Positions 5,469 to 63,452 of a DNA stretch of 64,000 nt are shown piece after piece. Every line of letters starts with the position of its first letter. The stretch's first letter is position 1. The stretch is from Acholoe squamosa (lineage: Eukaryota > Annelida > Polychaeta > Phyllodocida > Polynoidae), in NCBI GenBank assembly GCA_949317995.1, contig OX439045.1:7683674-7747673 (forward strand), read 5' to 3'. The translations under genes and the position numbers were made by a program. The notes below the pieces were generated by a model. That model was not told the DNA's origin and made no database searches. It saw only the letters and a program-made list of their open reading frames with translations.

Positions 5469-5646
5469 GGGAGTGGTCATTTATTTAAAAACGGGGGGGG
5501 GTGAGTTAGGGGGGACAAAAAAATTTCAGACCCCTCGTAGGGGGACAAAAAAGATTTCGCCACTTTTGAGCAAAAAAGCCCTACGCTCTACTAAAGAATT
5601 AAAGGGGATGACGGAAAGATTTCGGACCCCTCAGAGGAACCCTCCC
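5469..5646. mobile_element. MITE, GGGAGTGGTC-type, truncated copy 4
   Basis: The left end GGGAGTGGTCATTTATTT follows TTA and the GGGGG-rich interior matches the family. The right end survives only as CCCTCCCTTA. Confidence 0.6.
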
Positions 5647-13924: not shown

Positions 13925-14176
13925 GGGAGTGATCATTTTTTAACAACGGGGAGGCTGACCCCCCACCATAAGGGACAAAAATTGAGCACGAACGTCTCCT
14001 TTTAACCTATAGTAATGCACGGGGTTTTCTACTGAAAACAGGTGAAATTCTTTTGACCCCCCGCATCAAAGGTGTTGAAAAAATTCTGACCCCCCGGTCA
14101 AGAGGTTGAACAAATCCTGACCCCCTCCCCTCAAACCCACCATCCCGCCCCCTGTTGTTAAAAAATGATCACTCCC
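13925..14176. mobile_element. MITE, GGGAGTGATC-type, copy 5
   Basis: TAA-flanked on both sides. The GGGAGTGATCATTTTTTAAC end and its complement are intact; the interior is shortened relative to 2974-3293. Confidence 0.8.
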
Positions 14177-14204: not shown

Positions 14205-14410
14205 GTGAAAACGTCCGAAGACACTGGGATTCGAACCTGGATCTCTCAGCTTGCAACTGAGTGCTCTGCCACTGAGCTACATCCCCTGGCCTGCCATTTC
14301 CACCTTCCAACCACATCTTGATCGGTATGGTATACAGAGGAGGAGTGACCACCAAGCATACCAACACCTGGGGCTGATACACATGGGAGCGAACAAACCC
14401 CTACACTACC
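14205..14410 (-). mobile_element. tRNA-derived SINE fragment with cysteine-tRNA-like head
   Basis: On the minus strand from about 14288 the sequence GGGGATGTAGCTCAGTGGCA opens a tRNA-like fold. The anticodon arm CTCAG-TTGCAAG-CTGAG is perfectly paired and presents GCA (Cys). The acceptor and T stems are poorly paired, so I treat it as derived rather than functional. The plus-strand tail CTGGGGCTGATACACATGGG also occurs, diverged, near 9915. Confidence 0.55.
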
Positions 14411-14886: not shown

Positions 14887-17742
14887 ACATCATGTGTATC
14901 ATGATGCACCAACACCACATCATGATGCACCAACACCACATCATGATGCACCAACACCACATCATGATGCACCAACACCACATCATGATGCACCAACACC
15001 ACATCATAATGCACAAACATCATTATATGATGCACCAACATCACATCATAATGCACCAACACCACATCAGGATGCACCAACACCACATCATGATGCACCA
15101 ACATCACATCATGATGCACCAACATCACATCATGATGCACCAACACCACATCATGATGCACCAACACCACATCATGATGCATCAACACCATATCATGATG
15201 CACCAACATCACATCATGATGCACCAACATCACATCATGATGCACCAACACCACATCATGATGCACCAACATCACATCATGATGCACCAACATCACATCA
15301 TGATGCACCAACATCACATTCTGATGCACCAACACCACATCATGATGCATCAACACCACATCATGATGCACCAACACCACATCATGATGCATCAACACCA
15401 CATCATGATGCACCAACACCACATCATGATGCACAAACATCATTATATGATGCACCAACATCACATCATGATGCACCAACACCACATCATGATGCACCAA
15501 CACCACATCATGATGCATCAACATCACATCATGATGCACCAACACCACATCATGATAAACCAACACCATATCATGATGCACCAACACCACATCATGATGC
15601 ACAAACATCATTATATGATGCACCAACATCACATCATAATGCACCAACACCACATCAGGATGCACCAACACCACATCATGATGCACCAACACCACATCAT
15701 GATGCATCAACACCACATCATGATGCACCAACATCACATCATGATGCACCAACATCACATCATGATGCACGAACATCATATCATGATGCACCAACATCAC
15801 ATCATGATGCACCAACACCACATCATGATGCACCAACATCACATCATGATGCACCAACATCACATCATGATGCACCAACATCACATCATGATGCACCAAC
15901 ACCACATCATGATGCATCAACACCACATCATGATGCACCAACACCCCATCATGATGCACCAACACCACATCATGATGCACCAACACCACATCATGATGCA
16001 CCAACACCACATCATGATGCATCAACACCACATCATGATGCACCAACATCACATCATGATGCACCAACATCACATCATGATGCACCAACATCATATCATG
16101 ATGCACCAACATCACATCATGATGCACCAACATCACATCATGATGCACCAACACCACATCATGATGCACCAATACCACATCATGATGCACCAACACCACA
16201 TCATGATGCACCAACATCATTTCATGATGCACTAACATCACATCATGATGCACCAACATCACATCATGATGCACCAACATCACATCATGATGCACCAACA
16301 TAACATCATAATGCACCAACATCACATCATGATGCACCAAAATCACATTATGATGCACCAACATCACATCATAATGCACCAACACCACATCATGATGCAC
16401 CAACATCACATCATATTGCACCAACATCACATCATGATGCACCAACATCACATCATAATGCACCAACACCACTTCATGATGCACCAACATCACATCATGA
16501 TGAACTTACATCACATCATGATGCACCAACATAACATCATAATGCACCAACATCACATCATGATGCACCAACATCACATCATGATGCACCAAGATCACAT
16601 CATAATGCACCAACACCACATCATGATGCACCAACATCACATCATATTGCACCAACATCACATCATGATGCACCAACATCACATCATGATGCACCAACAT
16701 CACATCATGATGCACCAACATCACATTCTGATGCACCAACACCACATCATGATGCACCAACACCACATCATGATGCACCAACACCACATCATGATGCATC
16801 AACACCACATCATGATGCACCAACACCACATCATGATGCACAAACATCATTATATGATGCACCAACATCACATCATGATGCACCAACACCACATCATGAT
16901 GCACCAACACCACATCATGATGCACCAACATCACATCATGATGCACCAACACCACATCATGATAAACCAACACCATATCATGATGCACCAACACCACATC
17001 ATGATGCACAAACATCATTATATGATGCACCAACATCACATCATAATGCACCAACACCACATCAGGATGCACCAACACCACATCATGATGCACCAACACC
17101 ACATCATGATGCATCAACACCACATCATGATGCACCAACATCACATCATGATGCACCAACATCACATCATAATGCACCAACACCACATCATGATGCACCA
17201 ACATCACATCATATTGCACCAACATCACATCATGATGCACCAACATCACATCATAATGCACCAACACCACTTCATGATGCACCAACATCACATCATGATG
17301 CACCAACATCACATCATGATGCACCAACATAACATCATAATGCACCAACATCACATCATGATGCACCAACATCACATCATGATGCACCAAGATCACATCA
17401 TAATGCACCAACACCACATCATGATGCACCAACATCACATCATATTGCACCAACATCACATCATGATGCACCAACATCACATCATGATGCACCAACATCA
17501 CATCATGATGCACCAACATCAGATCATGATGCACCAACATCACATCATGATGCACCAACATCACATCATGTGTGTCATGATGCACCAACACCACTTCATG
17601 ATGCACCAACATCATATCATGATGCACCAACATCACATCATAATGCACCAACACCACATCATGATGCACCAACATCACATCATGATGCACCAACATCACA
17701 TCATGTTGCACCAACATCACGTCATGGTGCACCATGATTGGT
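14887..17742. repeat. 21-bp satellite, about 136 units
   Basis: The unit is CACCAACATCACATCATGATG with common variants (ACACCACATC, CAACACCATATC, AAACATCATTATATGATG). Because 21 is a multiple of 3 and the unit lacks stops in several frames, very long open frames arise on both strands (7-residue periods such as MMHQHHI, DAPTSHH and VHHDVML). Blocks of variants recur in the same order (for example near 15640 and 17040, and 16300 and 17330), indicating higher-order duplication of several hundred bases. I do not call a gene. Confidence 0.9.
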
Positions 17743-17974: not shown

Positions 17975-19524
17975 CCCCTTCTTTTGTGATTCAGAATAAT
18001 GCCGTACAGTGTTGTGTATACTTGGGTAGAGTGATCTAATCAGGCGGGCACCATTTCTCATTTTGAGTTCAAGGCGTTAGAGATGACTCTCTTTAATGCA
18101 CAGCCTTATATGCATCTCTATACGTCAAATCACATATATCATGCACTGATGTACGTAGAGTTAACGTAGGAGTGGTCTTGGAAGTAATTAATCAGTTCAG
18201 TAATCACATGGTCAATGCCAGCCCTGGGCAGGCTGTGCACAGCAACCAGATTGCTATGATAATATAGTACTGATCTAACCTACCCATGCACACGCGAGTC
18301 GGCAATATATATAATACAGTTTGTCTCAAGTTTGAGATATTTTTCTTTTGTGATTCAGATTAATGCCATACAGTATTGTGTATACGACTTGCACTCCTGG
18401 GTAGAGTGATCTAATCCGGCGGGCACCATTTCTCATTTAGAGTTCAAGGCATTCGACAGTGGAGGTCACATTTAGAGATGACTCTCTTAAGTACACAGCC
18501 TTATACGCATCTCTATACGTCAAATCACATATATCCTGCACTTATGTGCGTAGAGTTAACATAGGGGTGGTCTTGGAAGTAATTAATCAGTTCAGTAATC
18601 ACATGGTCAATGCCAGCCCCGGGCAGGCTGTGCACAGCAACCAGATTGCTATAATGATATAGTACTGATCTAACCTACCCACGCACACACGAGTCGGCAA
18701 TATATATAATACAGTTTGTCTCAAGTTTGAGATATTTTTCTTTTGTGATTCAGATTAATGCCGTACAGTATTGTGTATACGAATTGCACTCCTGGGTAGA
18801 GTGATCTAATCCGGCGGGCACCATTTCTCATTTTGAGTTCAAGGCGTTCGACAGTGGAGGTCACATTTAGAGATGACTCTCTTAAGTGCACAGCCTTATA
18901 TGCATCTCTATATGTCAAATCACATATATCCTGCACTTATGTGCGTAGAGTTAACATAGGGGTGGTCTTGGAAGTAATTAATCAGTTCAGTAATCACATG
19001 GTCAATGCCAGCCCCGGGCAGGCTGTGCACAGCAACCAGATTGCTATAATGATATAGTACTGATCTAACCTACCCACGCACACACGAGTTGGCAATATAT
19101 ATAATACAGTTTGTCTCAAGTTTGAGATATTTTTCTTTTGTGATTCAGATTAATGCCGTACAGTATTGTGTATACGACTTGCACTCCTGGGTAGAGTGAT
19201 CTAATCTGGCGGGCACCATTTCTCATTTTGAGTTCAAGGCGTTCGACAGTGGAGGTCACATTTAGAGATGACTCTCTTAAGTACACAGCCTTATACGCAT
19301 CTCTATACGTCAAATCACATATCCATGCACTTATGTACGTAGAGTTAACGTAGGGGTGGTCTTGGAGGTAATTAATCAGTTCAGTAATCACATGGTCGAT
19401 GTCAGCCCTGGGCAGGCTGTGCACAGCAACCAGATTGCTATAATAATATAGTACTGATCTAACCTACTCACGCACACGCGAGTCAGCAATATATATAATA
19501 CAGTTTGTCTCAAGTTTGAGATAT
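17975..19524 (-). repeat. 395-bp tandem duplication of a coding segment, about 4 copies
   Basis: The boundary motif TTTGAGATAT recurs at 18331, 18726, 19121 and 19515, giving a 394-395 bp period. Read on the minus strand each unit encodes the same stretch of about 130 residues: LETNCIIYIADSRVRE, a stop in some copies, then LVAVHSLPRADIDHVITELI, ISAWICDLTYRDAYKAV, LELKMRNGARQIRSLYPG and VVYTILYGINLNHKR. Conservation of reading between copies shows the duplicated DNA was protein-coding. 395 is not a multiple of 3, so the array cannot be read through in one frame. The order (IADSR near the start, ICDLT, LYPGVQVV) is reminiscent of an SGNH-hydrolase-like fold, which is only a guess. Confidence 0.7.
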
Positions 19525-20000
19525 TTTCCCACCTGTTGCTCATCTAGCAAATGTTGTGCATGATGCTGCGATTGTTCAATGCTGCACCTCTCCATTAGTA
19601 GCTCCCCCATGCGGTTTTGTCCCGGAAAACTACCTGATTCCCACCTTTTATCATCAAGTACATAGGAACCGCCCCAATAAGGGTCTAATGTTGATTCGAT
19701 CAAGATTTGGTCGGTGCTGAGTAGTTTTTCACAAAGATCTATGTGTTGTTCAAATTTACATTTGATGATTTCACCATTATATCATATCTACGTTACCATC
19801 ACGAATGTCCTGTAAGAAAAAAAGCCCTCTTTCCAGTATTTTTAATTTCAAACGGACTACTTTCTGCCATGGTCCATTAAAAATTAGGCCACATTTTGTT
19901 TCACACATCCGCTCTTTTCTACCTTTGGCTCTCTCAGTAGCATTACTTTTTTCCAGATCTGATACATGTTGTTTTACATCATCATTCCAGATATGTAGAC
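19525..20000 (-). pseudogene. Broken NADAR-like (YbiA/DUF1768) domain gene
   Basis: On the minus strand, residues KFEQHIDLCEKLLSTDQ, LIESTLDPYWGG, W-E-S-G-S-F-P-G-Q-N-R-M-G-E-L-L-M-E-R follow the NADAR signature order (KFxQ..L...LL.T, EA/ES..D..WG, G.N.LG..LM..R). The upstream part (WNDDVKQHVSDLEKS ... LKILERG) is in a shifted frame, with a stop and a one-base shift near 19775, so the gene is not intact. NADAR domains act on ADP-ribose or riboflavin-pathway compounds in known families. The chain continues directly into the 395-bp coding repeats, so the original protein was probably NADAR plus the repeated segment. I cannot tell whether it belonged to a mobile element. Confidence 0.6.
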
Positions 20001-23637: not shown

Positions 23638-23954
23638 GGGAGTGATCATTTTTTAACAACAGGGGGGCTGGTGGGTTTGCGGGCGGACACGCGAAAAAAA
23701 TTTTGACCCCCCTCTCGAGGGGGTAAAATTTTTCCGACCCCCCCCCATAAGGGACAAAAATCGTGGGCGGACGTCCCCTTTTAGCCTATAGTAACACGCT
23801 GGGTTTTCCACTGAAAACAGGTGAAATTATTTTGACCCCCCCATCAGAGGTATTGAAAAAATTCTGACTCCCCTGGTCAAGGGGTTGAAAAAATTCTGAC
23901 CCCCCCTTCAAACCCACCAGCCCCCCCCCCTGTTGTTAAAAATTGATCACTCCC
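23638..23954. mobile_element. MITE, GGGAGTGATC-type, copy 6
   Basis: TTA flanks both ends. The GGGAGTGATCATTTTTTAAC end and its complement are clear. It inserted at the right edge of the CTAGTA-rich field, since related sequence continues after it (TTAGCTAGTGCAG). Confidence 0.8.
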
Positions 23955-31777: not shown

Positions 31778-32087
31778 GGGAGTGGTCATTTATTATCAAC
31801 AGGGGGGTGGTGGGTTTGAGGGGGGGCGTAAAAAATTCTGACCCCTCTCGACGGGGGGTTAAAAAAAATTTGACCCCTCTTGAGGGGGGGGCGAAAAAAA
31901 TTTACCCTCTTTTTAGCAAAAAAGACCGTGCGCTACTATAGATCAAAGAGGGGGCGCGAAAACTCTGCGCCTCCGGCGCAGGGGGGCACATATTTTTTTA
32001 CTGCCGTCGAAGGGGGGCGTAAAAAATTTTCGCGCGTCCGCGCGAAAAACCCACCACCCCCCCTGTTGATAAATAATGACCACTCCC
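31778..32087. mobile_element. MITE, GGGAGTGGTC-type, copy 8
   Basis: TTA-flanked on both sides, with GGGAGTGGTCATTTATTATC and its complement as ends. The G-run/C-run interior is full-length like 103-419. Confidence 0.8.
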
Positions 32088-32924
32088 TTAGAACGTTACT
32101 CCAGGATGAAGTGAAACGGAATGAAGTGCTGATGAGCAGACTCACCAGCAAGTCTTTGGTGCATCATAACGACCATGATACACTCCAAAATCAGTGGTCC
32201 TTAAAGAACACTGATTGATTTAAAATGCACATTGGCACCCACTCCCTACAATAGCGTCCTTGGATGGAGAGTCCAGATAGTTAAGAGATATTTTGGTCTG
32301 GACTAAGAGATGAAATATTTATGTACAGGAGCAAAACACATGCAAACACTGCCATTATATTAGGCCAAAAAATATATAAATTGCTTGTTTCAGATAACAT
32401 GTTGAAAAAATTTATCTAGGGTAGTTCGGACTTTTGTTTTATTTTATTTATTTATTTTCACTTTTTTTTGCAAAATCCTTCCAACTACTACAGTGACTCA
32501 TGACTCGTGGCAGAGACCCACTGATCACTTAATCAAATGAGAAAAACACCCTGAAAGTATTTTGTTGAAAATTGGAGAGAGAAAAAAAGATTAAGGTCAG
32601 CCCTGTTTTCTACGCAGGGTTGGGTTACCTGAAACACACAACTGCTTTCACCTTAGACATGCTGGACGTAGTGTCCATATAGAAACTCAGGAGAAGCACA
32701 GACACTCCTGCCATATTATAAACATGACAGGAGAGACACGGGGTTCCCCTGTTTCCTTCATTCATAAACCTCTCTTATTTTATGCATGGTTATGCTGTGG
32801 CGGCGAGTTTTGGGTATGTCATAGAAGCAGGTAGGCAACCTTTTTTTCATATTCAAAAAAGAAACTCCCAAGTGAGTATACTCGACAGCACCTTATTGGA
32901 ACCTCATCTCCGGGAATATGTCGG
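32088..32924. other. No gene recognised
   Basis: Unique sequence with one GCACTTCAT-like repeat fragment near 32130. No coding support. Confidence 0.35.
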
Positions 32925-33036
32925 CATGATGCACCGATGAAGTGCTGGTGAGACTGTTTGCTAGCACTTCATTGGTACATCATGAAGACCAATGGGCATG
33001 ATGCATTAATGCATCAGCGGCCTTTAAAGGGTTAAA
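32925..33036. mobile_element. GCATGATGCA hairpin element
   Basis: GCACCGATGAAGTGCTGGTGAG is mirrored by CTAGCACTTCATTGGTACATC, followed by CCAATGGGCATGATGCA and CCTTTAAAGGGTTAA. It is the same family as 60968-61192. Confidence 0.6.
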
Positions 33037-35001: not shown

Positions 35002-36568
35002 ATGGCAGAGCTGGACAAGGTGGCAAATGCTCTAAATGCCATAAATAGGGCAAACGTATCGTCAGCTGTGGCCGACCAGGAATAATGGCTTCAGGTTGTC
35101 AATGATTATTTTTTATACCCTGATGAGTTTGACGATTCTGAGGATTCTGACTCTGATAGTGACTCCAAGACTGAGGAAAATAATGAGGAGGATGTTGAGG
35201 AATCATCTGATGTGGAAGACATAGCTCTAGTTATAACTGATCCAGTGCAGGAGTGGTGTGATAAAGAGAAGGCGTTGAGTGACAACTTCAGGTGAGTGGC
35301 GAGTTTTGCATGGCGAACTTTCTGAAGCAAGTGGTTTATTCTCCTGTGTTTAGATCCCCAAAATGAAATCAAGCAATACCATTGTGTTCACAACACCTTT
35401 ATGCATGTCTATGACTGTAATAATTTACAAAAGTGCTATTATTTCATCACATAGATATGAATTTATTCAGGGGACACCACCATGACCTTGATAAGATATC
35501 AAGCAACATGTGCGTTTGTGTTTATCATTTTTTTTCACAAATTGTTATCTAGTGCCTGTCTGATATAGGATTTGACTATCACTTTTATTTTATAAATGGA
35601 CTAGCTATTATTTTACTATAATATTCAGGTGTCGCTGTCAGCATGGGGATGACAATAAACCCTGTAGTACCATGTTTACATCTGATGAGTTCAGAGAGAG
35701 ACGTGAGGAAGTTGCCCAGCTTAACAGAGGTAAGCTTTTCTACAATAACTGTATTAATATCTCCTTGTTACTTGATTTTCAATATCTTATTAAAATCATT
35801 GAAATTTAACTTGAATATTCAAATTATTATTATAATTCAGTTTATTCATTTGATAGTTATTCTAAATGCACTTTGGGTCTAGAGATCTTTATTTATTATT
35901 ATGGCAAGAATTGTGAAAATAATTATTTTTTCATGTCAACTTAAGAAATGAGCTCGACATGCTGTTACTGGGGGTGCTGGCCGCATCAACAGACAATAGT
36001 GCAAGGCTTTCTACATGGAAGAAGGGTGATAAAGGGAAGAAGGACGGCAGGGGAATGTCACAGTCCCTACTTACGACTGGCAAACCTTTCTCTCCCCTTT
36101 CAGCAAGACAGTGACTGGCATTAAACAGTACCACTACTTTGAGTTCACTCATGAGCGGGACAGGTTGCCATGAAGAAGGTGGTGGATGAAAACCCTGTCT
36201 TCTGTAACATCTTGACAAAGGAAGTAGGAGAGGTTCCTCAGGGCATGCCTGCCATCATCCCATCTCCAGGTCTCCTACCTTTCAGGCAATGGTACATTAG
36301 GGACTTCTGTAACAGTTCAACCAGAGACATCAGCTGTCCTAAGCCAACAGTAGAAAAGCTAGGGGCAAGCTCAGGACAAAGAGATAATGAGACCGAGGGC
36401 CAACAGCCAGAACAACAGTCACTCAGAGGCCGTGGAAGGGGCAGGGCCAGAGGCAGGGCCAGGGCTAGAGGAAGGGGCAGAGATAATGGTGAACAAGCAG
36501 AGCAGGAGGCACCTGTTGGTACTGGTAGAGGTAGAGGCAGAGGCAGGGGCAGTGCTCAAAGCCAATAA
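35002..36568 (+). pseudogene. Decayed multi-exon transposon-derived gene
   Basis: Exon 1 (35002-35291) starts MAELDKVANALNAINRA. It has an in-frame TAA after V-A-D-Q-E, continues with an acidic Ser/Asp/Glu stretch and ends AG|GTGAGT. Exon 2 (35629-35729) joins in phase and encodes CRCQHGDDNKPCSTMFTSDE and R-R-E-E-V-A-Q-L-N-R. Exon 3 begins near 35941 (NELDMLLLGVLAAST) but needs a one-base shift, then has stops. The end (36113-36568, two shifts) has TGIKQYHYFEF, LLPFRQWYIRDFC and CPKP followed by an RGRGRG-rich tail. The Cys-rich start, ELD..L.G block, RQ.Y.....C and CPKP order recalls a widespread uncharacterised family of animal transposon proteins. The catalytic middle is missing, so it is a deletion derivative. 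Confidence 0.55.
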
Positions 36569-37176
36569 CAGGAGCTGAGATCAAGAGGACGACCTAAAGG
36601 TGCCACATCATGGAAACAGGAGCCCTTCATCAGAAGATGACTCAACTAACGAGTTGTGGAGTGCAAGTGATTCTGACTAAAATCACTTGCACTTGTGCCT
36701 GCATATGCAAGTGATTCTAGTTAGAATCACATGCACTGCACACTATGGTGCTAATCTCAACTTTGAACATTATAGACTCAACATTTTAGATGTATTTATT
36801 TTAATTATTTTATTTATTTTATTATCATTTCAATTGGTGCAAACATTGAACACAGTGGAGCACACCCACCACTTTGATCTAAATTGGTGTGAACATTTAA
36901 TATGGAGGGGCCCACTTAACACTTGGATTCTGCCTTTAATTGGTATTATGAGGTGTAAACACTCAAAAGACAATGCTGATATACCTTCAGAATGTGTGAG
37001 CTGTCTCCAAACTACACAAGGAACAGGTATTGTGCCCACAGACAATTCGACTAAACCACTAACTCATTCATTTTTTCAGGGAATCGTGCATGTTATTTGA
37101 TGATGTTGCATGAATAAAAATATTTCTCCAGTATGTACCCTGTTTTTGACTATACACGAGATCTATATGTTTGGTA
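36569..37176 (+). other. 3' region of the transposon-derived gene with poly(A) signal
   Basis: It contains a hairpin of ATCACTTGCA/TGCAAGTGAT words at about 36660-36740 and AATAAA at 37113-37118, a plausible polyadenylation signal. No further coding exon recognised. Confidence 0.4.
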
Positions 37177-40100
37177 CAGTGGCCCACAAGGGTCAAATTG
37201 AAGTTGAAGTAAAGAGTTGACTTTCACAAAAAAGTTAGAGTCCAAAACCAATATTAATGTTCAAAGTCAATTTCATTTCATTGCTGTCAAACTGTCAAGG
37301 TGTCAACTCATGAAAACCAACTTGTGACAGGTATCTTTTAGCATTGCATGGTGCACTCTATGTCTTTCTATATGAACAAAGTTTATACCAGCAACTACTG
37401 GGTAGCTATTGGTTCCCTCACACAATATCTGATGGTTCCACACCAAGTAGTTGGTGGTTCCAGCATCCTGTAACTGGTGGTTCCCACCCACTGTAACTGC
37501 GGTTCCACACCTATCCGCTACTGGCACTGGATCCCATACCAAGTAGCTGCTGGTTCCCACACCCAGCACTTGGTGGTTCCCATGCACATTAGTTGCTGTT
37601 TCCTGTACCCAGTACATGCTGGTTCCCACATCCAGTAGCTGCTGGTTCCCATATAAAATGGTTCCTAACCCAAGTAGCTGCTGGATCCCACACCCTTGCT
37701 GGTTCTTGCACCCAGTACCTGCTGGCTTCCACATAGAGTAGCTGGTAGTGGTTCCCACATCCATTATGTGCTGGTTCCTGCACCCACTTCCTGCTGGTTC
37801 CCAAATAGAGTGCCTGCTGGTTCCTACATCAGGTAATTGCGAGTTCTTAAAAGAGTAGCTGTCAAAATAAGTCAATTGGGTCAGGATAGGTCAAATTAGG
37901 TCAAATTTATGTTGAAAATAGGTCATATTGGTCAAAAGTATGTCTATTCGGGTAGCATAGGTCAAATTATGTCAAATATGGTGAAAATAGGCCAAATTGG
38001 TCAAAAGCAGGTCAATTAGGGTAGGATAGGACAAATTAGAGTAAATATCGTGAAAATAGGTCAAATTGGTCAAAAGTAGGTCAATAAGGTCAGGATAGGT
38101 CAAATTAAGTCAAATAGGGTGAAATTAGGTCTAATTGATAAAAAGTAGGTCGATAAGGGTAGGATAGGTCAAATTAGGTCAAATATGCTGGCAAAATATG
38201 TCAAATTGGTGAAAAGCAGGTCAAATAGGGTAGGATAGGACAAATTAGAGTAAATATGGTGAAATTAGGTCAAATTGGTCAAAAGTAGATAAATAATGTC
38301 AGGATAGTTGAAATTAAGTCAAATAGGGTGAAAATAGGTCTAATTGGTAAAAAGTAGGTCAATAAGGGTAGGATAGGTCAAATTAGGTCAAATATGGTGA
38401 AAACCAGTCAAATTGGTCAGAAATAGGTCGATAAGGTCAAAGTAAATCAAATTAAGTCAAACATGGTGAAAATAGGTCAAATTGGTCAAAAGTAGGTCAA
38501 TTAGGTCTGGATGGGTCAATTAAGGTCATATATAGTGAAAACAGGTCATATTGATCAAAAGTAGGTCAATTAGGTCCAATAAGGTCAGGATAGATCAAAT
38601 ATGGTTGAAATAGATCAAATTGGTCAAAAGTAGGTCAATTTTGTCAAAATGTAGGGTATGATAGGTGAAGTGTCAAATATGCTGGAAATAGGTAAAAGTA
38701 GGTCATTTATGTCAAATTATGTCGAAATTTGTCAAAATAAGGTCGACTATGACTATTTTTGACCAATCTGACCTACTTTGACTATATTTGACCTAATATG
38801 ACCTATTCTAACCTACTTTGACCTAATCGTACTACTTTTGACTGATTTGACCTATTTTAAGATATTTGACCTAATTTGAACTATCCTTACCTAATTGACC
38901 TTCTTTTGAACAATTTGACCTATTTTCACCATTATTTGACCTAATTTGACCTATCTTAGCCTGATTTGACCTACTGACCTACCTTTGACCAATTTGACCT
39001 ACTTTTACCATATTTGACCTGATTTAATCTCCTTGACCCACCTTTAACCAAATTGACTTATTTTCGCCATATTTGACCTACCTTAGCCTACTTTGACCTA
39101 CTGGACCTACTTTTGACCAATTTTACCTGTTTTAACCAAATTTGAACTTATTTTACCTATCTTAACCTACTTTGACCTAATTGACCTACTTTTGACCAAT
39201 TTGACCTACTTTTACAATATTTGACCTGATTTCACCTCATCGGCCTACCTTTTACCAATTTGACCTATTTTTGCTATATTTGACCTATCCTTACCTACTC
39301 TGACATAATTCGACCTTAATTGACCTACTTTTGACCAATTTGACTCATTTGAACCCACTTGGACCTAATTTTGACCAATGTGATCTATTCTTACCACCGT
39401 TGACCTAATTTGATAGAATTTGACCTGATTGACCCATTTTCAACCAATTTGACATAATTTATCCTAGTCTGACCTAATTTCATTCAATTTTACCTACTTG
39501 GAACCAATTTGACCTATTTCGACAAATTTTAACTATCTTGACTGCTTATGACCTAGTTTCACGCAACTTTCCCAATTTGCCCATTTTTGACTTATATGAC
39601 CTTTTTCATCCAGAACTTATCCAGATCACTCTTTTGCTACTAGGTATGGGAACCGGTAGCTACTCTATATCGGAACCAGCAGCTACTGGATATGGGAACA
39701 AGTAGCTACTGTATGGGAACCAACAGCTACTGTTTTCAGAACTAGCAGTTACCTGATGTGGGAACCAGCAGGCACTCTATTTGGGAACCAGCAGGTAGTG
39801 AGTGCAGGAACCAGCACCTAATGGATGTGGGAACCACTACCAGTTACTCTATGTGAAAGCCAGCAGGTATTGGGTACAAGAACCAGCAAGGGTGTGGGAT
39901 CCAGCAACTACTTGGGTTAGGAACCAGTTTATATGGGAACCAGCAGCTACCTGATGTGGGAAGCAGTAGCTACTGTATGTGGGAACCAGCATGTACTGGG
40001 TACAGGAAACAGCAACTAATGTGTATGGGACTACCAAGTGCTGGGTGTGGGAACCAGCAGCTACTTGGTATGGGATCCAGTATCAGTAGCTGATTGGTGT

Positions 40101-40430
40101 GGAAACACCAGTTACAGTGGGTGGGAACCACCAGTTATGGGATGCTGGAACCAGCAGCTACTTGATATGGAACCATCAGTTATTGTGTGAGGGAACCAAT
40201 AGCTACCCAGTAGTTGCTGGTATAGACATATAGAAAGACATAGAGTGTACCATGCAAAGCCAAAAGATACCTGTCACATGTGGGTTTGCATTCATGAGTT
40301 GACACCTTGACAGCTTGACAGCAATGAAATGAAATTGACTTTGAACATTGATTTTGCTTTTGGACTTTAACTTTTTTTTGTGAAAGTCAACTCTTTGCTC
40401 CAACTTCAATTTGACCCTTGTGGGCCACTG
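37177..40430. mobile_element. 3.25-kb foldback element (giant palindrome) with minisatellite arms
   Basis: It starts CAGTGGCCCACAAGGGTC and ends with the exact complement, and TA flanks both sides (37175-37176 and 40431-40432). Each arm has three zones in mirrored order: a unique terminal zone (about 210-260 bp), a zone of GCTGGTTCCCACA-type repeats (about 37385-37865 and, inverted, 39640-40210), and a zone of AGGTCAAATTGGTCAAA-type repeats (about 37870-38745 and, inverted, 38755-39600). The zones are collinear variant by variant, at roughly 90% identity by eye over the part compared, so the halves form one inverted repeat rather than two independent arrays. The centre is near 38750-38800. 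No transposase is visible, so it is non-autonomous. A transcript would fold into long dsRNA. Confidence 0.85.
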
Positions 40431-40432
40431 TA

Positions 40433-43700: not shown

Positions 43701-43708
43701 TGTGAATC

Positions 43709-43785
43709 CAAACTGGGACTCGAACCCGGGTCCTTCAGGTACCAGGCAAATGCTCTAACCCCTGAGCTATCGGGACGGTGCTTTA
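43709..43785 (-). repeat. tRNA-like SINE head, copy 1
   Basis: The minus strand has A box TAGCTCAGGGGTTAGAGC and B box GGGTTCGAGTCCC. The anticodon arm is not well paired, which argues against a functional tRNA. Confidence 0.6.
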
Positions 43786-44095: not shown

Positions 44096-44180
44096 CCAAT
44101 CCCAACCTGGAATCGAACCTAGGTCCTTCGGGTACCAAGCGAATGCTCTAACCGCTGAGCTATCAGGGTGGTGCTTTACC
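44096..44180 (-). repeat. tRNA-like SINE head, copy 2
   Basis: Same arrangement as the copy about 390 bp upstream, with TAGCTCAGCGGTTAGAGC and AGGTTCGATTCCAGG on the minus strand. Confidence 0.6.
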
Positions 44181-44330: not shown

Positions 44331-44556
44331 GTGCACTGTAAAAGAGATATCGTCAAAATAACGACACACTCCCCATCTCATAATTATCCATTGTCAATTT
44401 CAAAGAGATTTCTTGTACTTTTGTGTACCACCATACTATGGTACCACCTGGGGCTTCTTGTAAAAACTACACTTGTCCAACGTTATACAATTATGGTAGT
44501 CCACAGGTCAGTTTTATGAGGATCTCTGGTAGGCTCAAGAGAGACAGTGTGCATAA
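44331..44556 (+). mobile_element. MITE of the CACTGTAAAA family, copy 2
   Basis: It opens GCACTGTAAAAGAGATATCG and contains AGAGATTTCTTGTAC, ACCACCTGGGGCTTCTTGTA and GGTAGGCTCA in the same order as 12318-12545. The right end is eroded. Confidence 0.65.
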
Positions 44557-45857: not shown

Positions 45858-45965
45858 ATTATTAACCCTTATATATATAGGGCCGCTGATGCATTAAATT
45901 GCATCATGTCCATTGGTCGTCATGATGCACCAATTAAGTGCTGGAAGACTGCTTGCAGAAATGTT
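45858..45965. repeat. GCATGATGCA hairpin-repeat copy
   Basis: GGGCCGCTGATGCATTAA, CATTGGTCGTCATGATGCAC and AATTAAGTGCTGG; same family as 32925-33036 and 60968-61192, incomplete. Confidence 0.5.
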
Positions 45966-50379: not shown

Positions 50380-51639
50380 ATGTCTAGACCCAAGAAGCCA
50401 GAACTAAATCTAACAGGGAACATCCCAGAAAACTTCAAAAATTTTGAAATGAGATTCAACGACTACTGCATCGAGTCCGAATATTGAGACCTGTCCAAGA
50501 ATCCTGAAACTCATTGGGCTGAGTACTATGCTAAGCCACTGATGGAAATTGCTGCGTTACGTTCATCTATGCCCGATGAGGCACTGCAGGTTATTCGGTA
50601 CAGCATAGAGCCCCAAATTTCAGTCGGGGACAAATGCAAGCCTTGGGTGTGGTTGGAGAGACTCAGAACTCACTACACGGGTTCGGCCACATCCTCGCTG
50701 CTGACAGACAGATTCACCTTCTGGATGGCCACACAGGGCGCCCATGAGTCGGTGCAAGACTGGGAGACCCATGTACGGTGTGAGTGCAGCCTGTGTGACT
50801 ATGGTACTTTAACTGATGAGATGAGCCGTGACAAGTTTATTTTTGGTTTACGAAACAGTGACATTCGGGCAGAGCTTCTAAAATGTCATGTCAAAGCTGA
50901 CAACACAAAAAAGACACTTAGTGATGTTGTTGCAGAAGCCAAGGTGTTAGAAGTTGCAAAGAGGGCTAATCAGCTTATTGGCGAAGCCACCTGAGGCACA
51001 GACGAGGCTGTGAATTGGACGGCAAAAGGGAAGGCTCACAAAGATATGAAGCTGAAACGTGAGAACGGTATGTGACACTGGTGCAGTGACAGATGTCGAA
51101 CACACCCTTGGTCGAAGTGTCCAGCCAATGGAAAGAAGTGTGGCAAGTGTGGTGGCAACGATCACTTCTCCCGTGTCTGTCTTGAACCTCAAGGAGACAG
51201 TCACCGCCCACAGACCCAGAGCCGCAGTGCGGGTCATTCCAGGAAAAATCAGTGGGGTAGAGGGGTCAACCATGGGCCTCAGAATAAGTTATCGCCTGAC
51301 GACAGAAGAAGTCAACATAGCATCCATGCGGTCAACACTGATGAAGACCTAGCTCATGTACCCCAAGACCCTTACTCAGAAGTAGACTATGACGAGCAGT
51401 GTTACTCCCTGGAAGACACAGCTGTCTTTCAAGCTGGTGCAAGGAAAGGGCGAAAGTACTTTGCACAGCTTCTTCTGTCGGATAAGGGTGACAGGTTCAA
51501 CAGAATGAAGATACAAATAGACTCAGCAGCTGGAATCAACACAATGCCAGAACGCCTGGCCAGGAGTGTGTTTCCATCTATCAAGATGACCCGTTCACCA
51601 TACCAGCTCTTCCCTTACAAAAACACTGCTCCAGTATAG
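50380..51639 (+). pseudogene. Gypsy gag, zinc knuckle and protease region
   Basis: One frame from ATG at 50380 carries a capsid-like part (W-A-E-Y-Y, WLERLRTHYTG, FGLRNSDIRAELL), a zinc knuckle C-G-K-C-G-G-N-D-H-F-S-R-V-C, and a protease active-site motif I-D-S-A-A-G near 51520 (the usual form is D-[ST]-G or D-[ST]-A). Stops interrupt it at 50485, 50992, 51073 and 51637. In an intact element this polyprotein forms the particle and matures itself. Confidence 0.75.
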
Positions 51640-51809
51640 CCCATTTGTTAGATCACCCTCTTATGTGACAGGGGGGATCGTTATCATGACTTGGTATTCC
51701 AGGTGCTAGCAGACAGTGACATTGGTGAGAAGCCTGCACTTTTCTAGCTAAACCCTCACCAAAGACTATTCAGATCCCTCGCTCCAGATGCCTGCCTCCA
51801 GCAGGCAAC

Positions 51810-53021
51810 TTGACTAAAGATGCAGTCTTGCGTGAATACAAGGACAGCTTTCAGGGACTAGGGTGTCTGGGCCCACCTTTCCTTTTTGAGTTGAAGGCAG
51901 ATATTGTGCCAGTCCAGATGCCCAATCACCGGGTGCCGATCGCCAAGCGGGGAAAAGAGAAGGAAGCACTGGACAGGTATGTGACATTGGGGATCATGGC
52001 AAAGGTGGATGAGCCCACTCCCTGGTGTTCAAACGCACTCATAAGAGAAACCCCGAAGAAATTCCGCGTCTGTATTGACCCAAGTCAGACCGTCAACAAG
52101 GCATTGATAAGACCTCTCTTCCAAATCCCCACATTGAAGGAACATTTACACAAGCTGGGTAATGCCAAGTGTTTCTCTCTCCTTGATGTTCGGGAGGGAT
52201 TCCTACACATTCCTCTTGATGAAGAGTCGTCTATGCACACCACCATGCACACATCATATGGCCGATATCGCTGGCTTCGACTACCTTTTGGTATATCATG
52301 TGCGCCAGAGGAGTTCCAAAAGAGACTCTTGGATGCCCTTGAGACCCTTGAAGGAATAATTTGCATTGCTGATGATATCCTTGTTTATGGTGAGGGTGAG
52401 GACTACACAACAGCAAAGACCAGCCATGACAGAATATTGGTGGCATTGATGGAACGTTGTGTGGCTAAACACATCAAACTCAATCCAGATAAGTTCAAGT
52501 TTGCCCTTCGGGAGCTCAAGTTCATGGGGAACATTATCACTGATAGTGGCTTGCGGCCAGACCCTGAGAAAGTGTCAGCAGTCACGGGAATGACAACCCC
52601 GACAGACAAGGCTGGTTTGATGCGGTTTATAGCCATGGCCACATACCTATCACAGTTTTGTGACAATCTGAGCTCGACTCTACAGCCCTTACGTATGCTG
52701 ACAAAAGACGGTGCCAGTTTCATGTGGTCCAAGGTGCAGGAATCATCATTCCAAAGAGCCAAGAAGCTCATCGCATCAGCACCTACACTCCTCTACTACA
52801 GTCTGGATAAACCAATGACATTGCAGGTTGATGCAAGTGAGTCAGGTTTAGGAGCCGCACTTCTGCAACCAAACACAAAGGGAGAGCTACAGCCAGTAGC
52901 CTTCAGCTCATGCCGGCTCAGTGACACAGAAAGGAGGTATTCTCAAATGGAAAAAGAGTGCCTCGCCATTTGCCATGGTCTCCACAAGTTCGACCAATGG
53001 CTTTATGGGAAAAACCATTAA
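51810..53021 (+). pseudogene. Gypsy reverse transcriptase and RNase H (partial)
   Basis: An open frame of 403 codons. RT blocks are visible in order: FRVCIDPSQTVNKAL, F-S-L-L-D-V-R-E-G-F (about residue 126), YRWLRLPFGISCAPE, the catalytic I-A-D-D (about 186-189), then the connection and an RNase H start with V-D-A-S-E-S-G-L-G (about 331) and the conserved S-Q-M-E-K-E. The frame stops soon after Y-G-K; the piece normally following it, with H-T-D-H, is missing, so a small deletion and a frameshift end it. The frame differs from that of gag. Its role in the element is copying RNA to DNA. Confidence 0.85.
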
Positions 53022-53371
53022 ACAAAGCACCCGCCAGACTGCAAAGGATGTTGATGACCTTGCAGCGGTACCGTTTTACATTGGAGTACAGGAAAGGCAC
53101 CACGCTTCTCATAGCAGACACCCTATCCAGAGCAGCTTTACGCACCCCCGTCAATACACCCACAACAGGATTTGAGGTGTTCAGACTGGAGTGTGAATCC
53201 GTCAGCCGCAGTCCCAGGTTGACTGGAGAGACTGAGAGGGAGATAGTGCAAATGACTAATGCTGATGAGTTACTCAATGCTTTACGAGACATGATTATCG
53301 ACGGCTGGCCAGATGACTGTGCTGTAGTTCCCAAGGATCTTGGGGATACAGAGATGAGCTGTCTGTACTGA
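53018..53371 (+). pseudogene. Gypsy RNase H-integrase connection
   Basis: The pol reading continues in another frame: PLNKAPARLQRMLMTLQRY, IADTLSRAAL, then a linker ending in a further one-base shift near 53340, where the next frame gives D-E-L-S-V-L-N-E-A-V-Y-K-G. Confidence 0.7.
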
Positions 53372-53397
53372 ATGAGGCTGTATACAAGGGGGAGACT

Positions 53398-54216
53398 GTG
53401 TTAGTGCCTCAGCAGCTCAGGGCCACAATGTTAGCCAAGATCCATGCAAATCACCTTGGAGCTGAATCAAACTACAGGATGGCTAAGGAGGTACTATTCT
53501 GGCCAGGAATGAGAGCCGCGATAAAGGACATGTGTGATGCCTGCGAGACCTATGCAGTATATGGTTCATCATCACAAAAGGAGCCCATGCTGTCACTGCC
53601 TATACCGACAAGACCTTGGGAACTACTTAGTCAAGACTTGTGTGCATTTGAGGGGAAGGACTACCTAGTCACTGTGTGTCATTACTCAGATTGGATCGAG
53701 ATAGACGAGCTGGGAGACACCCTTGCCTCTACAGTAGTCGACAAGACAGAGGTTCACCTAGCCACTTTTGGGGCCCCAGCAAGAATACACACGGATAATG
53801 GCCCTCAATTTATTAGTAAAGACTATGCAGACATGGTGACCAGGTTCAGGTTCATCCACACAACATCATCACCTTATTACCCGAAAGGGAATGGTCGAGC
53901 AGAGGCAGCAGTGAAGGTAGCTAAGGGGTTGCTAAAGAAATCGATGAACATCAAACTCGCCCTGTTACTTCACCGTAACACCCCCCAGGCTGGATATTCA
54001 TACTCTCCTGCTCAGCGTATGCTATCCCGTCGGACACGCACTCCTCTCCCAACTTCAGACAGGCTGTTAGACTCTCAGGTGGCGGACAGTCAGGTGGTCC
54101 AGGAGGAAATTAATACTCGCAGGGTGGCCTCCAAGGCACTATATGATAGGAATACTGTAAACCATCCACCTTTCTCAGTTGGAGACTATGCTTACCTGAA
54201 GCCCCCCCCCCCCTAA
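53398..54216 (+). pseudogene. Gypsy integrase
   Basis: H-x-N-H-L-G followed by C-D-A-C forms the zinc-binding N-terminus. The catalytic core shows D in L-L-S-Q-D-L, D in I-H-T-D-N-G-P-Q-F and E in G-N-G-R-A-E-A-A-V, the DDE triad. The GPY-like C-terminal region is cut by a run of C at about 54200-54213 that shifts the frame. Confidence 0.8.
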
Positions 54217-54664
54217 CAGGCGTGGTCAACCATGGGCCTACGGGCAGGTAGTTGACTGCAGAAGACCCAGATCATACACCGTTCAGACTGATCGGGGACT
54301 GGCTAGCCGCAACCGGGATCATGTGCGGCCAGCTGCTCCTCCCCCAGTTGGCATTAGACATGGGCAGACAACTCAGCCCAGAATACCCTTGGCTCCAGTT
54401 ACACCATCAGCCAGAGCCCACATTTCACCAGAACCAGCTGACAACCGGCAGGAGGTGCAACCGAAGGAGACTTGTTCCCCACAGAAAGTGCCAAAGTCAC
54501 CTGCACTACACAGCAGCAACACTGCTGCATCTCAGTCCAGGGCCACTAGTGGCTCTGTTGTGGGCGGTGGTACCTCCATTGCCCTGAGGCCCTCTTCGGT
54601 TCGTCGCACAAGGACAAGGGAGATCTCACGACCTTCAAGATATGATGACTATATGCTTGCATAG
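54217..54664 (+). pseudogene. C-terminal tail of Gypsy pol
   Basis: After the C-run, the frame with GQPWAYGQVVD and RDHVRPAAPPP continues as a Pro/Ser/Thr-rich tail. It ends in RRTRTREISRPSRYDDYM, the usual basic terminus with RP-x-R-Y-x-D, before a stop at 54662-54664. Confidence 0.6.
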
Positions 54665-59540: not shown

Positions 59541-62500
59541 GTAAGTAGTAATGAAGTATTCCTAAAAGAAGCATTCATGCTGACCCGACAGTCAACAAAG
59601 AATGCTATCCAAAGGAAGGGGGTAGCCAAAATATTATTTTGGGGTCTGTATGCAATCCCACCACCCTGCCCCCTTCGTTGAAGCACAATAGCAATTGAAC
59701 ACTGCCAATGTCCTGCCAATGTTTCATTCAGGAGAAAATCACATCTATATGCTTTGTTGCTGGTGACACAGTTTAAGTGACACATCCACTACTGTGAATT
59801 TCTTGCAAATTGCACCCGTGAGTGTATCTTCACAGAAAACATTACGGCATTGAATCATCTATACTACAAGGTCTGAGTCCCGTGCGACAGCATTCACAGA
59901 ATTCAAAATGATTTGATTTTAGCGACTGCTCTTGGAGATTTGAGTGCAAGTCACAAGAAATTTGGGGCAGTGGATTTGCCGCTTTACAGCACATGGTTTC
60001 TTTACACTAATTATGGAGTGTTCATTATTCAAGAACAGGGCAAGGCTGGTGGGTTGGGGGTAGGGGACAAAATATTTTGACCCCTCAAAGCAGGGTAAAA
60101 AGATTTTGTCCCTTTTCAGTGAAAAAGCATGTGAAGTATTACAGACTAAATGGTCATCCACAAAACCTTTGGTATTTACGTTGACAGAGGGGAAATTTCA
60201 ACCTTCACAAGTTGAGGGGTGAAAAGATTGTTACATGGCCCATCCCTGTTGTTAAAATAGTACTGCCTACTGTTTAAAGGAATCTCGGTGCAGTTACAAG
60301 GCAAAGTCCTCTGAATTGATAGGTATAAGGCAGAGAGATAGTGTGTAAATGGTGGATGGAGACGAACACCTTGTCCATGCCAAGATGGTAGATGGAAGAG
60401 AGAGAATCATAGGATTCAAAGTACATGCTCAGGCCAATGACAAATCAGTCAATGTTATGTTTAGCCACTATATGGCGTACTGTTACATCCTCCAATTTTC
60501 CTGTATAGGTCCTGCAGTTGGGATGTTATCAGACAGGTACGGTGAGAGGACTGTCGCTGTCCTTGGGGCCCTCCTGTCTACACTAGGACTGGCAGCAAGC
60601 GCCTTCACTACTCAGGTAGGTAGATCTTAAATTTTTTTCTAAAAGATTGGAATTGAGTTCTCAATACAGAGGTGCTATTCCCAAAACTGAACTGACTCAC
60701 CTTAAGCGATATTCTGCTGCCGTCAGTCAGTCAGTCAGTCAGTCAGTCAATTTTTTTCTATACTTTTGCAATATTGATTAGCAGAAATACACACAACTGA
60801 TTGTAATGAAATACCCACTTTAGGGAATTGATTCTCTCTATGTGGTCTTGATAAAAGGTAATTTGTGAGAGAAGTGGTTCAGGAGTTGTCCAGATTTGAT
60901 GTGTATTTCCCAAGTCATAACCCATTCCAGGCTTGTTCCTTCCTCCTATTCCCAGGCCTAAGTAATATATAAGTGGTTGTCATGATGCACCAATGAAGGG
61001 CTGGTGAGACTGCTCGCCAGCACTTCATCGGAGCATCATGCCAACCCTATGGGGTTGATACATATACTCCCAGAGGGTCGGCAAGATGCTCCAATGAAGT
61101 GCTGGTGAGCAGTCTCACCAGCACTTCATTGGTGCATCATGACGACCAATGGGCATGATGCATTTCTGCATCAGAGGCCTTTAAAGGGTTAAGCATTACT
61201 TAAGCAACACTGACTGCACCAAAACTCAATGTTTTTTATTGAGTCTTCCAGGCATTCCAGAATGTACAATAATTCACCATTATTTGTGAAGCAGAGAAAG
61301 ACAATGAAGCACCAAAAAATCATAACAGTGAAGCACTGTCTGATTAGGAATCTCTGTGGAAATGAGGGTAATAGCTTTGTCCCAAATAGGGCAGAGCATA
61401 ACTGTGTATCTTATGTTCAATATTTATTATAATTGTATTGGATTTATTTGTAGGTTTACCAGCTATACATCTCCTACAGCATCCTCTCAGGTGCTGGTAC
61501 AGGGATGATGTACAACCCTTGCATTTCCATTCTCTCCAATTACTTTGACAAGTATCGAAGGTTGGCCTGTGCATGTGCCATGTGCGGACTCGGAGCCGGT
61601 TCTTTCATCATACCGCCCCTACTCAAGGCGCTAGAGGAGTTCTATGGTTGGAGAGGGGCTATTCTGATGATGGCTGGTATTAACAGTCATAATTTGGTAC
61701 TTTGCTGCTTATTTAGACCTGCTATGGAGGAACAGGAAAGTATTGAAGTGTTCAAGCAGGTTGAATCGGCTGAGGAGAGTGTGAAGGTGATTTTGACCTC
61801 GGGTGCTGTTTATCGCACAGAGAATGGAAAGTGTGTGTCTATGCTTAGTGGGATAAATAAGAATTTGAGAAGTATGAACAACCTGAATAGAAGTCTAAGG
61901 AGTGTATGTATAAACAGGAATTCCTCTGACATAAAATCTCACTACTCAAGTCACCTTGACATGGGGGCTTTCTACAAGAGCTCTAATAGTATAAATAATC
62001 TTTCCAAGACCTGCAGTCTTATGAATGACCTCAACAAGTGTGCCAATTACAAAGACGCTATCTGCAATAGCGCGATTAATGTGAAACCCCTGTCAAATAG
62101 CGTCGGTAATCTTGAGATTGACACGGAAGATCTAAAAACTTCTGACACCTTGGCTCAGAGGTTGCTATCGCTATTTAGAATCACCCCGTTTCTCTGTATC
62201 ATCCTTTTCACCTTCATCGTGCAGTTCACCATCGCCTTTGTTTACACCCACTTTGGTAACTATGTCTTAACGCTTGGCTACTCCAGCCGTGATGTCGTAG
62301 CACTGTATATAGCAACGGGGATTACCTCCACTGTCTGTAGGCCACTGTCAGGGTTTATCATCCAGACCACCCATGCCAATTCTGCAGCTGTTATCCTCAT
62401 AACCAATGTGGCCAATGGTATAATGACGGCTGCGCTGCCGCTGACCACCAACCTGATCCTGCTGTATGTTTACATAGTCCTGTTCAGCGTGCTGCTCACT

Positions 62501-63452
62501 CCATACAATATCCTGTCATCGTCTTACGTTATGGAGTCAGTACCTGCGACTCAAGCCTCGACTGGATTCGGATTGCTGTGCTTCTTCTGTATGCCCGGTA
62601 ATGTACTTGGTGCACCACTAGCTGGTAGGTGATAGGTTTTATTAGGTTGCATATACTCTAAAAAGATAAATGCTGAATCTACCAGGGATCCTGGTAAAAA
62701 TGAATAATGAATCACTGTAATTGCATTACAGTGAAGCAGTCTAGTTTCTACAATGAAGCAGTACAGTACCAATTGTGGTACGAGGAATCTCTATGAAAAT
62801 AAAAATGGCTCTCTGACAATTTTGGGACAAGGATTTTGTCATTATTTTATGATATTCTGTTTTACAGTGTCGCTGATTGATGCACCAGTCATCACACACC
62901 GTAAGAAAAAATGTTGTTGAAATAATGAAGGAATCCTCATCCCAAAGTTGACAGAGATCCATTGTTATTTCCAGAGAGATTCCATGTACATTTGTGTACT
63001 GCCACCTGGGGCTTCTTGTAAAACTACACTGCTTCACTGCAATACAATAACGGTGGTTCACGCTTAAGTTTTATGAGATTACCTGATAGATTCAACAGTC
63101 ATGTTTTACAGTGTACACATAATAACACCAGCCCTGATGTTGCAAAATCAAATGGTTTCTGCTTCCTTTCTTTGTGCAATATTTGAATTTTGCCAGTGTT
63201 GAGATGTGCATGAGTGAGTATAGTTAGAAAAGAGTGCTCACTATCCCAGAATGAAAATTCAGACTCAATTAAAAAAACATTATTAATAATCCTGTTTCTA
63301 TCCTTTCAGCCTTGCTCTATGACTTCACCAACATCTACGACTCATCTTTTTACCTCGCCGGGGGTTTGATGGTAGTGGCGGGTCTCACCATGTTCCCGCC
63401 CGCCTACACCATGTACATCAACAGGAGAGCCACGACTAAAACAACCGGTTAA
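59354..63452 (+). CDS. Monocarboxylate transporter-like protein (SLC16/MFS family)
   Basis: Four exons (59351-59540, 60509-60615, 61454-62624, 63310-63452) join in phase to a 535-residue protein. It starts MSKDRGYAWVVCVTSF; the K-D-R-G-Y-A-W block matches the D/E-G-G-W-G-W signature at the start of TM1 in MCTs. D-R-Y-G-E-R-T after TM2 fits the MFS loop 2-3. Six N-terminal helices (to about residue 185) are followed by a long polar loop (about 186-340, Asn/Ser-rich), then six more (FLCIILFTFIVQFTIAFVYT onward), ending in a short cytosolic tail. Family members move monocarboxylates or related small molecules across the plasma membrane; the substrate here cannot be read from sequence. Length is normal, all introns are GT-AG, and there are no internal stops. 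It could equally be an orphan MCT (MCT9/12/14-like). Confidence 0.88.
60014..60268. mobile_element. MITE, GGGAGTGGTC family, eroded copy 10 (intron 1)
   Basis: The diverged ends TGGAGTGTTCATTATTCAAG and CCCTGTTGTTAAAATAGTACT frame a GGGTTGGGGG.../TTTTGACCCCTC interior as in the other copies. Confidence 0.55.
60509..60615 (+). CDS. Transporter exon 2
   Basis: It begins after CCTGTATAG and ends ACTCAG|GTAGGT in phase 0. It encodes PAVGMLSDRYGERTVAVLGA and the third helix. A second acceptor (CTGCAG, 60516) is possible but would drop the conserved Pro. Confidence 0.82.
60718..60750. repeat. (CAGT)n microsatellite in intron 2
   Basis: About seven CAGT units. Confidence 0.9.
60968..61192. mobile_element. 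Double hairpin element of the GCATGATGCA family (intron 2)
   Basis: Two hairpins in tandem. CATGATGCACCAATGAAG...GCTGG pairs with CCAGCACTTCATCGGAGCATCATG (about 60984-61042). CCAATGAAGTGCTGGTGAG pairs perfectly with CTCACCAGCACTTCATTGG around CAGT (61091-61132). It ends in CCTTTAAAGGGTTAA like its relatives. Confidence 0.75.
61205..61440 (-). mobile_element. Eroded MITE of the CACTGTAAAA family (intron 2)
   Basis: TGAAGCACTGTCTG, GAATCTCTGTGGAAATGA and GCTTTGTCCCAAA match the 62650-62873 copy in order, with heavy divergence. Confidence 0.45.
61454..62624 (+). CDS. Transporter exon 3 (large)
   Basis: It begins after TTATTTGTAG and ends CTAGCTG|GTAGGT in phase 1. It encodes helices 4-11 and the whole central loop (YQLYISYSILSGAGTG ... 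MPGNVLGAPLA). Confidence 0.88.
62650..62873 (-). mobile_element. MITE of the CACTGTAAAA family, inverted copy (intron 3)
   Basis: On the minus strand from CACTGTAAAACAGAATATC it is collinear with 12318-12545 (ATCCTTGTCCCAAA, AGAGATTCCTCGTACCAC, CCTGGTAGATTCA). Confidence 0.65.
62905..63112 (+). mobile_element. MITE of the CACTGTAAAA family, direct copy (intron 3)
   Basis: It contains AATGTTGTTGAAATAATG, GAGAGATTCCATGTAC, GCCACCTGGGGCTTCTTGTA and ends GTTTTACAGTG-TA. It lies about 30 bp from the inverted copy, so together they form a large inverted pair. Confidence 0.7.
63310..63452 (+). CDS. Transporter exon 4 and stop
   Basis: It begins after TATCCTTTCAG. It encodes LLYDFTNIYDSSFYLAGG, a final helix and the tail NRRATTKTTG, then TAA at 63450-63452. 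Confidence 0.88.

Follow-up and report, generated by a model that had tools for sequence, protein, structure and literature searches.

Anatomy of a palindrome built from two minisatellites

We analysed a window of 64,000 nucleotides from the polychaete Acholoe squamosa (assembly GCA_949317995.1, contig OX439045.1, positions 7,683,674 to 7,747,673 of the forward strand); all coordinates below refer to this window. Positions 37177-40430 hold a foldback-like inverted repeat of 3254 bp. The original prediction had taken it for a foldback element whose arms are stacked minisatellites, and the anatomy supports this. The arms, 1569 bp on the left and 1685 bp on the right, join without a spacer, and each has several domains including tandem repeats: a unique tip, a 23-bp array (zone 1) and a 10/69-bp array (zone 2). 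The element thus has the trait of the foldback structural class, long arms that make up most of its length.

Both ends (CAGTGGCCCACAAGGGTC... and its complement) sit exactly at 37177 and 40430, as had been predicted, and are perfect over 30 bp. The proposed dot-plot check, carried out by comparing the window with itself by BLAST, gave a single unbroken inverted diagonal from 37175 to 40432, with 67% identity across 3476 columns. Global alignment of the whole element with its own reverse complement scored 2643, against a mean of -1643 (standard deviation 51) for 10 dinucleotide shuffles. In the predicted RNA fold, 1287 of 1348 pairs link the left arm to the right, with an energy of -1938.8 kcal/mol compared with -874.2 and -842.5 kcal/mol for two shuffles. 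The predicted mirror order of tip and two repeat zones was borne out by orientation motifs, each confined to its own arm: within the element GGTCAA and GTCAAA occur only left of the centre, TTGACC and TTTGAC only right of it; GGTTCC (n = 14) is found in the left arm only and GGAACC (n = 16, one of them within right zone 2) in the right arm only. No wrong-orientation copy of the tested motifs was found within the element on either side of the centre. Repeat orientation switches at GTCGAC (38742-38747), the centre of symmetry at which the arms abut, and the mirror axis lies around 38745.

The outer arms were delimited by arm alignment. On the left (plus strand), the tip, a unique-sequence terminal inverted repeat of ~215 bp, occupies 37177-37391 and is followed by zone 1, a GGTTCC-type minisatellite with a 23-bp unit, at 37392-37862. 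On the right (minus strand), the corresponding tip lies at 40211-40430 and zone 1 at 39723-40210, with an extra 23-bp unit at ~39951-39976. Between the arms, 197 of 210 aligned tip bases are equal (13 substitutions or 6.2%, TA included; 4 indels), as are 435 of 464 aligned bases of zone 1 (29 substitutions, likewise 6.2%; 5 indels). The perfect 30-bp end is no proof of constraint, since by our own arithmetic it would be expected in roughly 15% of cases at 6.2% divergence.

Zone 1 has its 23-bp period in both arms (autocorrelation at lag 23: 0.531 left, 0.522 right), and the two arrays stand in register. Their co-linear score was 732 compared with a maximum of 688 among 78 rotations (0/78 reached the observed value), and best matches followed the order of the other arm for 20/20 zone 1 windows of 40 bp and 11/11 tip windows (rank correlation 1.00). 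Variants of zone 1 pair one to one between the arms, the GGATCCCACACCCTTGCTGG unit among them. Mean best identity of zone 1 was 0.901 across arms versus 0.716 within an arm. Units of zone 1 resemble one another poorly within an arm but pair well between arms, so that the array probably predates the time when the two arms last shared an identical sequence; and since tip and zone 1 both carry about 6% substitutions, zone 1 appears to have behaved as single-copy DNA from then on.

Zone 2 makes up about 880 bp of each arm. On the left (37863-38745, plus strand) it is a minisatellite of GGTCAAATT type with a 10-bp unit, arranged as a 69-bp higher-order repeat (tandem-repeat scan: period 69, 11.3 copies, 79% matches, 37861-38640; autocorrelation 0.646 at lag 69). 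On the right (38746-39623, minus strand) the same 10-bp family is inverted and has no dominant period, its autocorrelation being 0.543 at lag 20, 0.539 at lag 79 and 0.487 at lag 69. Arm alignment places ~99 bp of zone 1-type sequence, present in the right arm only, between this array and right zone 1 (39624-39722, minus strand). In the register tests, the order of zone 2 matches between arms gave rank correlations of -0.46 (43 windows of 40 bp) and -0.42 (41 windows of 70 bp), and the co-linear score of 439 compared with a mean of 485 for 86 rotations, 93% of which lay at or above the observed value. The mirroring of zone 2 is limited to its sequence type and orientation, without register between the arms. 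The original prediction had repeat variants matching one to one between the arms, and the palindrome arising or being maintained as a whole. The first statement stands for zone 1 and fails for zone 2; the second is borne out only for the outer ~690-710 bp of each arm and not for the unregistered zone 2.

Left zone 2 was more alike within its own arm (0.851) than to the other arm (0.790), the reverse of the zone 1 pattern. Its internal copies are 93-96% alike over 80-120 bp, those of right zone 2 at best 85-88%. The left copies are about as young as the split of the arms, and the left array therefore seems to have kept amplifying. A derivation of the zone 2 unit from the tip was considered, as the tip has GGTCAAATTG at its positions 15-24 and the two zone 2 arrays contain it 3 and 5 times; the match was rejected as evidence because at least 10 bases were shared with zone 2 in 492 of 1000 shuffled tips.

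Ends, coding content and surroundings

As predicted, TA was seen at both edges (37175-37176 and 40431-40432), and on each side it is followed by CAGTG. In a boundary scan, both ends were shifted together from -6 to +6 for duplications of 2-12 bp, one mismatch being allowed from length 6. TA at the exact edge was the sole duplication and is the candidate 2-bp target-site duplication. At lengths of 6-12 bp nothing was detected, with or without a mismatch, and so neither the 8-10 bp of Mutator nor the 7 bp of P/Galileo elements. Two Tc1 elements, Frog Prince and Passport, have been described with ends in which CAGTG adjoins TA (PMC7093834), and Bari elements, also Tc1/mariner, carry three direct repeats in ends about 255 bp long (PMC4877112). 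The ends of the present element are Tc1/mariner-like, a likeness read from one copy and short of proof of membership of the superfamily. A bipartite Tc1 end, with the terminal 36 bp recurring in the tip or in zone 1 in either orientation, was rejected, matches being at chance level in both arms. The bipartite inverted repeat/direct repeat (IR/DR) type, with a second motif inside an end of ~200-250 bp, is not the whole Tc1/mariner superfamily.

The element has no evident coding sequence and seems to have little or no coding capacity. In five of its six frames the longest stop-free run is at most 79 codons, no plus-strand frame exceeding 78. The sixth frame contains a stop-free run of 195 codons (37303-37890, minus strand) through the tip and the 23-bp repeats, and no long open reading frame lies outside the repeats. 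A coding reading of this run was rejected, as a unit of 23 bp is not divisible by three and the run has no mirror counterpart in the other arm. The Tc1 transposase family had no match in the 9 frames scanned out of the 37 stop-to-stop frames of at least 120 amino acids in the window.

With six zones of the element as queries (E-value threshold 0.01), no convincing second copy was found in the window; the sole match outside the element, a 33-bp piece of the left tip (82%, E = 0.001), was taken as noise. Neither flank, nor the two flanks joined, matched elsewhere in the window beyond 18 bp, and no empty site in repeated flanking sequence was thus found there. The 21-bp terminus was absent from viral and prokaryotic contig collections, neither of which is expected to hold an animal transposon. 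When the first 9 and 12 bases of the terminus were searched as text in the literature, none of the matches listed looked related by title or start of abstract.

The remainder of the window is rich in other repeats. Short inverted-repeat elements of one family, whose ends read GGGAGTG(A/G)TCA, are present as six paired copies (103-419, 2974-3293, 3747-3972, 13925-14176, 23638-23954 and 31778-32087) and as single ends at 5469, 9091 and 42777; five of the six paired copies have matching TTA or TAA flanks, as in PIF/Harbinger-type elements, and several contain internal tandem repeats of 31-32 bp. Two imperfect palindromes were detected, one of 495 bp (62635-63129, 72% self-complementary; related pieces at 12323-12534 and 44386-44541) and one of 175 bp (60974-61148, 87.5% self-complementary; parts recurring at 32920-33035 and 45881-45953). 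Tandem arrays include a 21-bp minisatellite of 2.8 kb (14898-17734; about 135 copies at 90%), open in several frames, which a unit divisible by three permits, and a 395-bp repeat (18077-19527; 3.7 copies at 96%). LTR-retrotransposon-like frames at 50488-54664, judged to be of Ty3/gypsy type, hold domains of reverse transcriptase, RNase H and integrase, divided among separate frames, those of reverse transcriptase and integrase lying at 51.7-54.2 kb. An MFS exon at 61454-62632 has monocarboxylate transporters as its best solved relatives. Two tRNA-Thr(GGT) genes lie about 0.4 kb apart on the minus strand (43704-43776 and 44098-44169), and a tRNA-Cys gene at 14216-14286. An Arg-Gly-repeat-rich stop-to-stop frame (36155-36568) terminates some 0.6 kb to the left of the foldback and gave no Pfam match at E = 0.001.

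Origin and history of the element

The locus is probably one old copy of a non-autonomous foldback DNA transposon with Tc1/mariner-like ends, whose zone 2 was turned over later. A transposase supplied in trans would recognise the tips (TA, then CAGTGGCCCACAAGGG), excise the element and insert it at TA in Tc1/mariner fashion, TA being the presumed target duplication. The arms would have lengthened as tandem repeats were amplified within the terminal inverted repeats. The strong differences among zone 1 units of a single arm suggest that this array was amplified first. An inverted duplication, or a final round of correction between the arms, would then have left the outer arm (tip and zone 1) as a pair of identical inverted copies, and both of its parts would since have gathered their ~6% substitutions. 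Turnover of zone 2 would have continued, mainly on the left, where the 69-bp and a ~207-bp higher-order repeat spread, and the inner arms would therefore have lost register. We infer this order of events from one copy, and gene conversion of the outer arms or a chimaera of two copies would leave a similar picture.

Several observations weigh against this explanation. TA is self-complementary, so that one copy cannot separate a TA duplication from two more bases of inverted repeat, and a 2-bp match is weak alone (about one in sixteen by simple arithmetic). The match to CAGTG comprises five bases only. No excess of a second, direct copy of the terminal motif was found in the tip, where 111 (left) and 110 (right) of 300 shuffles reached the best match, and inverted matches there were not above chance (reached by 45 and 180 of 300 shuffles). 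Most published foldback elements are assigned to Mutator and not to Tc1/mariner (PMC4079207). No transposase open reading frame was found in the element, and its one known copy comes with neither an empty site nor a transposase. As to zone 2, the right array is no more like itself (0.780) than like the left array (0.790), so that arm-specific homogenisation is shown only on the left; and short zone 2 stretches do match across arms, with 92% identity over 50 nt and 85% over 80 nt, out of order.

A possible but less expected account shares the transposon reading and differs in how the present arms were formed: repeated gene conversion or hairpin repair, working from the ends inwards, would have kept the outer arms alike, and zone 2 would lie beyond the reach of the tracts; the alternative is a palindrome formed once in full, in which zone 2 was scrambled afterwards. 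The change from ~94% identity to unregistered sequence at 37862/39723 is indeed abrupt, and no ungapped 80-nt segment of zone 2 exceeds 85% across arms, below the 94% expected of undisturbed sequence. However, tip and zone 1 are equally diverged, so that there is no gradient inwards, and zone 2 segments of 50 nt are up to 92% identical between the arms. The loss of register is accounted for equally well by turnover within a tandem array, and the abrupt change coincides with the ~99-bp difference in arm length, which one deletion could explain.

It is unlikely that the element is a foldback of another superfamily, such as Mutator (8-10 bp) or P/Galileo (7 bp), with its duplication decayed or recombined away and TA merely the start of the terminal repeat. 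The filing of most foldbacks under Mutator (PMC4079207), the example of Galileo, which shows that further superfamilies join the foldbacks (PMC3573991), and the self-complementarity of TA speak for it; the boundary scan, which left no duplication of 6-12 bp at any shift, speaks against it, and a TA+CAGTG end would be unremarkable for Tc1.

An origin other than transposition is similarly doubtful. Here, a local inverted duplication of two adjacent minisatellites, for instance by template switching during replication, would have ended at TA by chance. Such an event would fit the single copy in the window, the abundance of tandem repeats there (71 rows in the scan, many overlapping) and the missing spacer, as in a simple hairpin-made palindrome. 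Yet the mirror takes in a non-repetitive tip of ~215 bp and stops exactly at TA+CAGTG on both sides, and other inverted-repeat elements with duplicated flanks occur in the window, so that insertions of this kind are usual here.

A chimaera, in which array recombination joined arms from two different copies of the family that were never identical in one element, is about as improbable: unusual divergence between arms and unequal flanks have been reported for copies of Galileo (PMC3573991) and the present arms differ in length and array structure, but the flanks agree at TA (weak evidence for two bases) and 6% substitutions are ordinary for one old element, the arms of Tm1 averaging 93.15% identity (PMC3169594). 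A fold-back artefact of the assembly was rejected, because the arms differ by 6.2%, the flanks are not mirrored and the mirror stops at TA.

The arms of Galileo hold further transposase binding sites in their tandem repeats (PMC3688188), and this led us to a more far-reaching idea to which we give little credence, namely that the two minisatellites are working zones of one TA-targeting foldback lineage. The registered 23-bp array would be an outer, multi-site landing platform for transposase, and the inner 10-bp array a fast-turning spacer, autonomous in each arm, whose loss of register weakens the hairpin and lets a spacer-less palindrome of 3 kb survive replication. Against it counts the predicted fold, in which zone 2 still pairs across the arms (639 pairs). 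If true, this would be a transposon that uses array turnover to stay replicable by its host.

Relation to known foldback elements

The FB (Foldback4) elements of Drosophila melanogaster differ from the present element in superfamily and in their longer target duplication. Zoned repeats of 10, 20 and 31 bp characterise FB arms, a feature for which our literature search gave no confirmation. The likeness to FB lies in its non-coding, palindromic copies (627-2266 bp in ten copies), built of modules of which the repeated ones are central (PMC2955051). More generally, foldback elements are described as heterogeneous, their inverted ends being composites of several domains that include tandem repeats (PMC3169594). 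The word 'giant' in the original prediction needs qualification: the arms are comparable to the 1-2 kb of the longest foldback arms reported by 2007 (PMC1952172), but fall short of those of Galileo, of which copies of up to 9 kb are described, one of 9021 bp with repeat-bearing arms of 4.2-4.7 kb (PMC4168063).

Galileo, a Drosophila element of the P superfamily, also has copies consisting of two arms only, and its repeat number differs between arms, which has been termed independent TIR (terminal inverted repeat) dynamism (PMC3573991, PMC4168063). Compared by description, it is unlike the present element in its 7-bp target duplications, its P-type transposase, its units of ~140-210 bp and the absence of repeats from many copies. 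Tetris of Drosophila virilis is likewise a non-autonomous foldback, whose arms of up to 1735 bp comprise outer flanking, tandem-repeat and inner domains; it differs in its ~220-bp repeats, its target duplications of 8-10 bp, its middle domain and a stretch of 37 bp common to its repeat unit and flanking domain (PMC4079207). Tm1 of root-knot nematodes has composite arms with a 13-15 bp tandem repeat that varies between arms and a mean arm identity of 93.15%; unlike our element it has mostly 9-bp target duplications, asymmetric end motifs and a Mutator/Phantom-like transposase (PMC3169594). On the Tc1/mariner side, Mcmar of Meloidogyne chitwoodi has lengthened, repeat-built inverted ends, a step toward a TA foldback, though these are 355-bp ends of direct repeats and palindromes compared with arms of about 1.57-1.69 kb here (PMC3169594). 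The Xenopus tropicalis miDNA4, a Tc1/mariner miniature inverted-repeat transposable element (MITE), is non-autonomous and carries tandem repeats or satellite, which are listed as lying within the MITE in the one table row that describes it (PMC9659126).

Published cases of foldbacks whose tandem repeats differ from one arm to the other thus already exist, in Galileo and Tm1. The TA-flanked design with two minisatellites looks new: among the matches listed in our literature search, which left most subscription papers outside, none was a TA-flanked foldback whose arms each carry two different minisatellites, which is weak evidence of novelty. If the element is merely one more decayed foldback copy, it has little import beyond annotation. 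Within the same arms, adjacent minisatellites have had unlike histories: one seems to have stayed frozen from the time the arms were last identical, and its neighbour was amplified anew in a single arm; given more copies, the outer arms could serve as a clock for array turnover. Foldback arms are thought to have arisen independently in different transposon lineages, by elongation of their inverted ends (PMC4079207, PMC3169594). A foldback with TA/CAGTG ends and arms of kilobase length would add to these independent origins a fully developed case of Tc1/mariner type.
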